Shown piece by piece: positions 1 through 61,752 of a stretch of 64,000 nucleotides of DNA. The notes under the pieces were generated by a model. The model was not told the origin of the DNA. It saw only the letters and a program-made list of their open reading frames with translations, and searched no databases. The stretch comes from Polynucleobacter finlandensis (GTDB taxonomy: Bacteria; Pseudomonadota; Gammaproteobacteria; Burkholderiales; Burkholderiaceae): contig NZ_JACVPS010000002.1 in the NCBI RefSeq assembly GCF_018881755.1, positions 124,001-188,000 of the forward strand. Reading direction: 5' to 3'. Each line of letters opens with the position of its first letter. The first letter of the stretch is position 1. The position numbers and the translations under genes were made by a program.

Positions 1-1409
1 TTGACCGGCTGACCATCAATAAACGCCACCGCTTGCGAAAGCATAAAGTCATCGGCACTACCTAGCTCAGTTGGCTTTTTAGACTTTTCTTTCTCTTTTT
101 CCTCAGGCGTTTTCTTAGCGTTTCTTTCTTCAATGCGCTGCATCTCTTCAATGCGACGTTGCTCACGATCTTTGATCAACTTATCTTCAGCTGATTGTTT
201 ATTGCGTAAGTGCTTCTCGCTATCAATTTCACGGGTGATTAAGACATCATCAGGGTCACCATCTTTATTCTGATCAACCGGGATGTCTGGCTTAACGCCA
301 TATGCCTGAATCGATTTACCACTCGGCGTGTAGTAGTAAGCAGTAGTAATTTTCAGTGCTGAGTCATTGGTTAATGGGCGCACGGTTTGAACTGAGCCTT
401 TACCAAAAGTTGTTTTACCCATGATCGTTGCACGCTTGTAATCTTGCAAAGCTCCGGCAACAATTTCAGAGGCAGATGCAGAATAGGCGTTTACTAAAAC
501 CACCATCGGTATTTTCTTAAAGAGCGCTGGCACACCAGCTAATGGGTCGCCCGGTTCACTCAGTCGATACATCTCAGGCGTTGCATTAAATACTTGTTTG
601 GAATCAGGAGATTGGCCCTTAGTGGAAACAATCACTGCATCGGCTGGTAAGAAGGCGGCTGCAACTCCAACAGCGCCTTGTAACAAGCCGCCACCATTGT
701 TACGCAAGTCTAGGATGACACCTTTAAGTTTTGGATCTTGTGCTGCAATTTCGCTTAACTTCTTAGCAAGATCTGGCACGGTGCGCTCTTGAAAGCTAGT
801 GACGCGAACCCATGCAATGTCGTTATCTAAGATTTTTGTTTTAACTGACTGCACTTTAATTTCAGCGCGGGTAATAGTGACGGGGAAAGTCCGCTCTTCG
901 CTCTTGCGATAAATAGTGAGCGTAATTTTTGTACCAGGTGTGCCGCGCATTGTGCGTACAGCTTTATCAAGTGACATCCCACGCACAGGCTTGTCGTCCA
1001 GGCGAGTAATCAAGTCGCCCGCCTGAAGTCCCGCACGTGCTGCTGGACTATCTTCAATGGGATTAAGGACCTTAACGAGGCCATCCTCTGATGTGATTTC
1101 AATTCCAAGGCCAGCGAATTTTCCCGAGGTTTGCTCTTGCATCTCGGAAAAATCTTTTTTATCTAAGAACGTGGAGTGTGGATCTAAGCTGCTAACCATT
1201 CCCTTAACTGCATCCGTTAAAAGTTGCTTATCTTCAATAGGCTCTACGTACTCCCGTTTAATTTGTGCAAAAACATTTGAGAGAGTTCGTAGCTCATCTA
1301 GCGGGAGGGTGGTACTTTGTTGAGCGGTTGCTGACAGTTGAATGGTTGCTGTTACTCCGGCAATAAGACCGACAGAGATTAGGGCAAAGTTCTTAAGAAA
1401 TCGACGCAT
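1..1409 (-). CDS. ctpA: C-terminal processing serine protease, S41 family (3' end outside window)
   Basis: Periplasmic, membrane-anchored tail-specific protease that trims or degrades envelope proteins. Reading from the ATG at 1409 gives a hydrophobic N-terminal signal/anchor (MRRFLKNFALISVGLIAGV), then a helical region, a PDZ domain (about residues 90-180, with GIEITSEDGLVKV) and the S41 core with the NNGGG loop. The catalytic serine lies in AYSASASEIVAGA and the lysine in TFGKGSVQ. A charged Lys/Glu-rich segment follows near the window edge. About 469 residues are visible and the stop codon is not in the window. It lies 14 nt downstream of gpmA on the same strand, so the two probably share a transcript. 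Family assignment is firm; the substrate is unknown. Confidence 0.95.
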   Translation of the reverse strand, partial: MRRFLKNFALISVGLIAGVTATIQLSATAQQSTTLPLDELRTLSNVFAQIKREYVEPIEDKQLLTDAVKGMVSSLDPHSTFLDKKDFSEMQEQTSGKFAGLGIEITSEDGLVKVLNPIEDSPAARAGLQAGDLITRLDDKPVRGMSLDKAVRTMRGTPGTKITLTIYRKSEERTFPVTITRAEIKVQSVKTKILDNDIAWVRVTSFQERTVPDLAKKLSEIAAQDPKLKGVILDLRNNGGGLLQGAVGVAAAFLPADAVIVSTKGQSPDSKQVFNATPEMYRLSEPGDPLAGVPALFKKIPMVVLVNAYSASASEIVAGALQDYKRATIMGKTTFGKGSVQTVRPLTNDSALKITTAYYYTPSGKSIQAYGVKPDIPVDQNKDGDPDDVLITREIDSEKHLRNKQSAEDKLIKDREQRRIEEMQRIEERNAKKTPEEKEKEKSKKPTELGSADDFMLSQAVAFIDGQPV

Positions 1410-60745: not shown

Positions 60746-61052
60746 GCAGAGTCAATTGGGCAATCGCCGCCTCTTTATTGAGGGGGAGGAAAGTCCGGAC
60801 TCCATAGGGAAGGGTGATGGCTAACGGCCATCCACGGCGACGTGAGGAATAGGGCCACAGAGACGAGCGTATTTAGTTACGGTGAAACGCGGTAACCTCC
60901 ACCCGGAGCAATCCCAAGTAAGCAGGCGATGAGGCGTCCCGCTGAGTCTGCGGGTAGGGAGCTTGAGCCGTCAGGTAACTGCCGGCCTAGAGGAATGATT
61001 GCCCCTAGATGCAAATCTAGGCGACAGAATCCGGCTTATCGATTGACTCTGC
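60746..61052 (+). ncRNA. rnpB: RNase P RNA, bacterial class A
   Basis: Catalytic RNA that trims the 5' leader of pre-tRNAs. Terminal helix P1 pairs GCAGAGTCAAT (60746-60756) with ATTGACTCTGC (61042-61052). The universally conserved core GAGGAAAGTCCGGACTCC is at about 60785-60802. The conserved 3' region near P4 includes ACAGAATCCGGCTTATCG just before P1. The total length of about 307 nt is normal for class A. ORFs inside it are rejected. It ends 2 nt before the osmC stop codon on the other strand. Confidence 0.97.
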
Positions 61053-61054
61053 AC

Positions 61055-61588: not shown

Positions 61589-61618
61589 TTGCATTGCACC
61601 ATGATTTTTGTGTAGAAT
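61589..61618 (+). promoter_or_regulatory. Promoter for a candidate small RNA
   Basis: TTGCAT (61589-61594), an 18-bp spacer and TAGAAT (61613-61618) predict a start near 61625 in the 405-bp gap between osmC and rplM. The upstream part of the gap (61478-61588) is AT-rich and otherwise empty. Confidence 0.55.
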
Positions 61619-61624
61619 ACCCAT

Positions 61625-61726
61625 ATTGGTAGTCAGTCTTATATAAGAGATTGATTCACCTCCCAGTGTCTCCTCCACCCAAACAAAGGTGGATTCCAAC
61701 CCAGGACTCGTTCCTGGGTTTTTTTT
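61625..61726 (+). ncRNA. Candidate ~100-nt trans-acting sRNA with anti-Shine-Dalgarno sequence
   Basis: It has its own promoter and a strong terminator, with no ORF. Predicted fold: hairpin 1, AGTCAGTCT (61631-61639) with AGATTGATT (61648-61656), 9 bp including two G-U pairs and an 8-nt loop; a CU-rich single-stranded linker 61657-61673; hairpin 2, TCCACC (61674-61679) with GGTGGA (61688-61693); then the terminator hairpin. TCACCTCC (61656-61663) is identical to the anti-Shine-Dalgarno stretch at the 3' end of 16S rRNA, and TCTCCTCC follows at 61669. From memory, Rfam has a betaproteobacterial toxic small RNA with such a sequence; this may be a member, but I cannot check. Confidence 0.65.
61698..61726 (+). 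terminator. Rho-independent terminator of the candidate sRNA
   Basis: AACCCAGGA (61698-61706) pairs perfectly with TCCTGGGTT (61712-61720) around a 5-nt loop. A run of eight T residues (61719-61726) follows. Confidence 0.95.
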
Positions 61727-61752
61727 AGGTTACAATTCAAGGCTTTACTGAA

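Follow-up and report, generated by a model that had tools for sequence, protein, structure and literature searches.

A Polynucleobacter member of the betaproteobacterial toxic small RNA family lies between osmC and rplM and probably pairs with the Shine-Dalgarno sequences of selected uptake mRNAs

The window analysed here is a 64,000-nucleotide stretch of Polynucleobacter finlandensis DNA. Between an osmC-like gene and an rplM-like gene (Table 1), positions 61589-61726 read, from sequence and predicted fold, as a -10-like box followed by a 5' hairpin, with a CU-rich linker leading to a second hairpin and then a terminator. The original prediction saw a regulatory RNA of about 100 nt here, and this is largely right; the RNA is not new in kind. 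Elsewhere in the window, an RNase P RNA gene occupies 60748-61054, between a dihydroorotase-like gene and osmC. The Rickettsia sRNA47 family (RF02800) matches 360-707 with 66.8 bits, antisense inside an open reading frame (3-1409, minus strand) that resembles an S41 (Ctp) peptidase, and the family may in fact be modelled on conserved protein-coding sequence.

Table 1. Features of the osmC-rplM site in the window, and candidate target genes elsewhere in the same genome (duplex energies in kcal/mol)
Feature	Position	Strand	Remarks
osmC-like gene, divergent upstream neighbour, 140 aa	61055..61477	-	open reading frame, tblastn; named by eye
Predicted promoter	61589..61618	+	-35-like TTGCAT 61589-61594 (weak), -10-like TAGAAT 61613-61618
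sRNA, predicted full-length transcript	61625..61726	+	start placed from the -10-like box; fold, Rfam, genus conservation
5' hairpin	61628..61660	+	closing GGU-ACC pairs include the ACC of TCACCTCC; fold, 24 relatives
TCACCTCC, 16S-like motif in linker	61656..61663	+	exact linker sequence not conserved
RF02278 match: seed, hairpin 2, terminator	61667..61727	+	51.9 bits; model R1 also finds 61664-61741
Possible RNase E site GU/GU	between 61667 and 61668	+	analogy with S17; same letters here
Seed GUCUCCUCC (motif GTCTCCTCC)	61668..61676	+	complementary to candidate target ribosome-binding sites
Hairpin 2 (UCCACC, loop, GGUGGA)	61674..61693	+	100% of cells paired, 48 relatives
Hairpin 3 and U run, predicted intrinsic terminator	61698..61726	+	stem 61698-61720; 98.6% of cells paired, 48 relatives
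rplM-like gene (ribosomal protein L13), downstream neighbour, 142 aa	61883..62311	+	open reading frame, tblastn; named by eye
Flavoprotein subunit of molybdopterin dehydrogenase, candidate target	C17:4042	reverse	duplex -26.5
ABC solute-binding protein, candidate target	C17:7196 (start 7208)		duplex -23.6
Molybdopterin oxidoreductase, candidate target	C2:9304		duplex -22.0
SMP-30 protein, candidate target	C7:44335		duplex -22.3

The segment 61628-61726 has a minimum free energy of -36.9 kcal/mol (z -4.8), matched by none of 200 shuffles, and its predicted fold contains the three hairpins and intrinsic terminator described in the original prediction. Mechanical calling on both strands found no convincing open reading frame over the RNA, only frames of 20-39 aa, so the view that it is non-coding was upheld. 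The proposed promoter stood in part: the TAGAAT box and the weak TTGCAT box keep their form in 24 relatives, but no sigma-70 site on the RNA's strand passed the threshold of a consensus scan. We therefore used conservation as the evidence for a promoter instead. A covariance search for the betaproteobacterial toxic sRNA family, which had been suggested as a check, gave a match. In an Rfam scan, RF02278 (Betaproteobacteria toxic small RNA; NcS27, S17) aligned over model positions 1-64, and the full-length score is barely above the gathering cut-off of 50 bits. The match consists of the GUCUCCUCC seed, then a hairpin, then a terminator. Members of RF02278 have their own transcript of about 57-115 nt, and both a promoter and a terminator are predicted for the window RNA. 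It is the only match above the cut-off in its genome, where a search at E<=1 gave five further matches of 17.5-20.4 bits; 11 of 14 control genomes also gave matches in that search.

Within the genus, 128 of 151 genomes match RF02278 at E<=0.01, 94 of them above the cut-off, and among good-quality genomes the count is 112 of 117. We examined 71 genus loci: that of the window, the top 30 by score and another 40 picked by hand, mostly for low scores or second matches. Fifty-seven lie at the main site and 14 at other sites. By tblastn, the main-site loci have rplM in 56 of 57 cases, osmC in 54 and both in 53; the contig of one locus, L018, ends before rplM. Three Polynucleobacter loci (L116, L142 and L179) have an rplM 93-97% identical and an unchanged gene order. 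GTCTCCTCCA and its hairpin are present in 54 of the 57 main-site loci, the exceptions being L044, which is cut at a contig end, and L048 and L057, with one change each. The L044 contig end carries a motif that we take to be a sequencing adapter, and it removes the sRNA seed.

Pairing was assessed in alignments drawn from 56 distinct copies, all of which contain GTCTCCTCC by selection. Alignment A1 (48 sequences) leaves out the other-site loci L046, L051, L053 and L055 and the near-duplicates L029, L031, L032 and L076. Hairpins 2 and 3 are paired in 99.2% of its cells, and 6 of 15 pairs have changed on both sides (2 of 6 in hairpin 2, 4 of 9 in hairpin 3). Such both-side changes fill 38 cells; the shuffles give 7.7, with none of the 500 as high as 38, and sliding the alignment gives 0-7. 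The number of further pair types in A1 (10) was not above that in shuffles, 385 of 500 being as high. The 5' hairpin was examined in alignment A2, with 24 sequences of the window's clade; L028 and L058, whose hairpin length differs, and L057 were excluded. It is paired in 79.5% of cells, with 4 of 13 pairs changed on both sides; the outer pairs co-vary, and in the register used four inner pairs do not form in 12-17 of the 24 rows. Taken together, the fold, the Rfam match and the paired changes place this RNA beyond chance.

Other RNA candidates were seen in the genus. A second double-hairpin candidate with the same GUCUCCUC start (L060:1446-1570, and L045, L047, L049 and L061-L066) lies between phasin-like and dihydrolipoamide-dehydrogenase-like genes, named by eye. 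It scores 26-30 bits against RF02278, below the cut-off, and shows paired changes in its first hairpin. A search of the window's own genome, run without a positive control, did not find this second RNA type. A third, more variable kind, made up of GTCTCCTCCATA, a hairpin and a terminator, occurs at other sites in four genomes (L046, L051, L053 and L055).

The original prediction regarded copying of the 16S rRNA 3' tail as the point of this RNA. Both motifs that it named, TCACCTCC and GTCTCCTCC, are present. The claim that the first lies in an exposed linker holds for its UCC, which is free (unpaired probability 0.94-1.0), but not for its ACC (0.06-0.08), which is paired with the GGU that closes the base of the 5' hairpin; the CCTCC motif is therefore half exposed rather than always paired. 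In the second motif GUCUCC is predicted to be free (0.96-1.0) and UCCACC to be paired. The longer TGGATCACCTCC occurs once in the genome, within a 16S rRNA match, and TCACCTCC alone is not unusual, with three occurrences in the window against 1.18 expected (14 of 100 shuffles reach three). Across A1, a single one of the 48 relatives has TCACCTCC exactly, and CCTCC occurs in the linker (the 16 bases before the seed) of 23 relatives and is absent from the other 25. Given these counts and the near-constancy of GTCTCCTCCA with its hairpin, 16S mimicry as the purpose of the RNA is not supported. Burkholderia and Paraburkholderia copies at the same site have AACCTCCG or ACACCTCCG, which makes a CCUCC linker an old, loosely kept trait of the osmC-rplM copy. 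We conclude that the conserved seed is GUCUCCUCC, rather than the 16S-like TCACCTCC. Identity with the 16S tail can thus be an accident of one species while the adjoining motif is the working seed.

The expectation of a CU-rich single strand able to pair with ribosome-binding sites was borne out by prediction, since the free GUCUCC is complementary to the Shine-Dalgarno (SD) sequences of candidate targets. Among 61 genus genomes, GGAGGAGAC with an ATG 1-12 bases on occurs at 123 places, some counted twice for having two ATGs. The letter-changed controls GGAGGAGCA and GGAGGAGTA gave 64 and 65, and the reversed GGAGGAGAC pattern gave 41; we used the two letter-changed controls because the reversed one ignores SD context. 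From 30 fetched places per motif, one per genome, an open reading frame of at least 80 aa begins at 24 for the AC motif, 8 for the CA control and 16 for the TA control. With related loci taken as independent, the AC fraction differs from that of CA (p-value = 7e-5) and less from that of TA (24/30 vs 16/30, p-value = 0.054). Among the AC cases, L243 (gap 12) probably represents an internal site. By eye, solute-binding look-alikes make up 18 of the 24, 3 of the 8 and 1-2 of the 16 frames. Three proteins, two among the 24 and one the ABC protein of the window's own genome, were checked against Pfam and gave two TctC and one Peripla_BP_6. The Fisher p-value of 4e-4 for the solute-binding bias is overstated, because related loci were taken as independent; grouped by gene family by eye, the bias is about 6/12 vs 4/16 (Fisher p-value = 0.24). 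Solute-binding proteins also turn up with the control motifs, so these genes tend in part to have a strong GGAGGAG anyway.

In the window's own genome, GGAGGAGAC stands before an ATG at five sites. Four lead real genes (Table 1), with duplexes of -22.0 to -26.5 kcal/mol, and the fifth opens three codons. At E<=1e-120 the ABC solute-binding protein has orthologues in 26 of 61 genomes, and 22 of these keep TGGAGGAGAC. Of the remaining four, one reads GAT in place of GAC and the other three, which are distant, have GAAGGAGACAC. The flavoprotein subunit gave 31 matches, 30 of which were fetched: 17 keep TGGAGGAGAC, three more keep GGAGAC, and the rest, including most of the more distant orthologues, lack the site. 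In the flavoprotein leaders that keep the site, the three bases before the ATG vary and GAGAC stays. The operons of the ABC protein and the flavoprotein adjoin each other.

The original prediction went further and suggested that the RNA could lower translation broadly and, as a speculation, that it tips the cell towards leaderless genes. Such a global brake, mimicking the 16S tail and pairing with most SDs, would make sense of the CU-rich single strand, of the presence of a 4-base SD at only 31 of 60 called window starts (83 of 472 internal ATGs have one; SD-poor genes may be common) and of the reported slowing of growth by overproduced family members (PMC5688073). Duplex energies speak against it. 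For gene starts in the window, of which 60 were called crudely, they had a median of -8.7 kcal/mol (best -20.2), compared with -10.1 (best -28.0) at 472 internal out-of-frame ATGs. Some of these internal ATGs form duplexes as strong as those of the targets, which counts against the selective-target model. The choice of starts favoured SD-bearing ATGs and should have helped the global reading. Because window gene starts show no general affinity for the RNA, neither broad repression nor a switch to leaderless translation is supported. Moreover, TCACCTCC is rarely exact and is half paired, the conserved target letters AGAC fall outside the SD core, and loss of S17 is reported to have raised 92 genes (PMC11722255). 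We consider a global brake highly improbable.

A different possibility is that the RNA acts mainly as a sponge or decoy that titrates Hfq, RNase E or another sRNA, its SD complementarity being incidental. The free CU-rich strand and the U-rich tail, which are usual features of chaperone-bound sRNAs, would suit such a role. Complementarity of the target sites over 10 bases in otherwise diverging leaders argues the other way, as do the compensatory mutations reported to restore S17 regulation (PMC11722255), and we give this explanation very little weight.

Beyond the genus, a scan of named relatives with a pattern that required the exact core returned at least 118 stretches. A divergent osmC lies within 2.5 kb upstream in 95, rplM lies within 1.5 kb downstream in 31, and 28 have both; among the 118 loci listed, the upstream side is too short to judge in 47 and the downstream side in 24. 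Two loci assigned by title to Planctomycetota and Verrucomicrobia (L155 and L157) lack osmC and rplM neighbours and may be due to chance or mis-binning. Burkholderia or Paraburkholderia copies at the osmC-rplM site (L118, L123, L145, L173 and L181) all have an ACCUCC linker, and the four of these five that were folded take the three-hairpin long form with a 5' hairpin.

In a class-wide sample of 369 genomes, 103 match RF02278 at E<=0.001, and the three above the cut-off are the window's own genome and two of the same order. We fetched the 27 best-scoring loci outside the order, all from the same class. In 23 of them, from 16 families, rplM follows the match by 95-417 bases on the same strand; the other four (L092, L096, L097 and L102, two families) have no rplM in 1.25-1.5 kb. 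These RNAs share a core of (G)ACTCCTCCATCCTCC...GGTGG and a terminator whose stem has changed on both sides in 8 of 8 pairs, and their hairpin 1 hardly varies. A model built from 19 of these loci (R1), whose calibration is rough, found its RNA in 36 of 39 sources, the three without being the control target loci L235, L236 and L242. On the window, R1 matched at the RNA with 37.1 bits (E 3.8e-9) and nowhere else in the 64 kb at E<=1. The outside-order RNAs thus share with the window RNA both a sequence-structure model and a place upstream of rplM. When 20 of the 27 loci were compared with all of Rfam, no family scored above its cut-off at the RNA's place. Second, weaker R1 matches lie at L092:2479-2545 (25 bits) and L097:220-286 (21 bits), two loci of one family; these are perhaps a paralogous RNA.

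The rplM-linked loci outside the order raise two readings at once. One is that the RNA is a cis-acting rplM leader or attenuator, with hairpins and a terminator that control how far transcription reads through into rplM-rpsI, and with at most a secondary role in trans. The same-strand rplM about 160 bases downstream in nearly all main-site genus loci fits this, as does its position outside the order. The RNA, however, ends in a strong predicted terminator, 87 of the 118 listed named loci show no rplM within 1.5 kb downstream (24 loci end too soon to tell), and known members are reported to act in trans on other mRNAs (PMC11722255). A cis-acting role is therefore unlikely, though it deserves more credence than a sponge or a global brake.

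The other reading concerns the age of the family. GTDB places the betaproteobacteria within the order outside which this sample lies, so the family seems wider than the name of RF02278, and the results suggest that it is also older. We give roughly even odds to a fuller version, in which the betaproteobacterial toxic sRNAs are a branch of an old family of rplM-upstream sRNAs with a CUCCUCCA seed, found across Gammaproteobacteria (as defined by GTDB) and kept through much of the history of the class, and in which the single Polynucleobacter copy has fixed the SDs of a nutrient-uptake regulon to UGGAGGAGAC beyond what 16S pairing needs. If the relatives outside the order are real sRNAs, the family is far older and has a lasting, unexplained link to a ribosomal protein operon.

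With these results, we think it likely that the window RNA is NcS27's orthologue in Polynucleobacter and that, as an RF02278 RNA, it represses selected uptake mRNAs by pairing its seed with their SDs. Our evidence consists of sequence, predicted fold, covariation, homology, synteny and conserved complementarity; from it we infer expression, processing, Hfq dependence, repression and an inducing condition. The pairing mechanism is carried over by analogy from characterised family members and is backed by the conserved target sites. The RNA would be a separate transcript from the osmC-rplM interval, ending at its intrinsic terminator, and would probably be trimmed at GU/GU (cut at the slash) to a two-hairpin form. 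AGU/GUCUCC stands at 61665-61673, and a cut there would remove TCACCTCC and leave a 59-nt form. The single-stranded GUCUCC would then pair with (GG)UGGAGGAGAC(A) at the SD of selected mRNAs, in a duplex of 9-13 bases that reaches into UCCACC once hairpin 2 has opened. Targets would chiefly encode periplasmic solute-binding proteins of ABC and TctC transporters, with some oxidoreductases, and blocked ribosome entry would result in less uptake and breakdown of carbon sources. This model would extend a regulator studied in two pathogens to free-living freshwater bacteria, and it names two adjacent operons as conserved targets. The passages of the Polynucleobacter sRNA literature that deal with the chosen terms do not describe this RNA.

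Among known systems, the cuckoo RNAs of alphaproteobacteria likewise work via anti-SD CCUCC motifs, but they belong to another lineage. The closest likeness is to NcS27 of Burkholderia cenocepacia: both belong to RF02278, and the Burkholderia copies between osmC and rplM have the same genomic place, three-hairpin form and CU-rich linker. NcS27 is reported as the 92-nt processed one of four RF02278 RNAs in that species (PMC4603805, PMC5688073), located between BCAL3348a and BCAL3349 (PMC4603805). Since BCAL3348 appears among ribosomal protein genes (PMC5688073), this location fits the place of the window RNA, and we infer that NcS27 itself is the osmC-rplM copy. The two differ in the loop of hairpin 2, which reads CAAACAAA in the window and lacks the CU-rich motif; CTCC occurs in this loop region in 90 of the 118 named loci listed, compared with 4 of 48 genus copies, and the motif is common in the family but not part of the Rfam cut-off. 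They also differ in copy number, with one copy above the cut-off here and three to five reported in Burkholderia (PMC5688073). NcS27 is reported to be conserved within Burkholderiales and to affect the use of amino acids and carbohydrates (PMC10987360), and its overexpression to attenuate growth (PMC5688073). Burkholderia copies introduced into E. coli are reported to inhibit growth (PMC5688073), and S17S is reported not to inhibit E. coli growth in exponential phase (PMC11722255). Herbaspirillum seropedicae, in contrast to the single copy above the cut-off here, is reported to have four RF02278 RNAs (Hsnc059, 063, 086 and 107; 93-115 nt), for which pairing with ribosome-binding sites has likewise been proposed (PMC7011215).

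S17 of Bordetella pertussis, another RF02278 relative, differs in lying between BP3151 and coq7, in its 190-nt long form, compared with about 100 nt here, and in being raised by BvgA (PMC11722255). The same source uses the name bdhR1 for one RF02278 double-hairpin RNA. It reports that RNase E cuts S17 at 5'GU/GU3', that Hfq binds S17 and that S17 represses directly by pairing at a ribosome-binding site, as shown with compensatory mutations; 32 transporter-related genes or operons are counted among its likely targets (PMC11722255). The window RNA has the same GU/GU letters and, as candidate targets, ribosome-binding sites of the same kind, those of transporters and solute-binding proteins.
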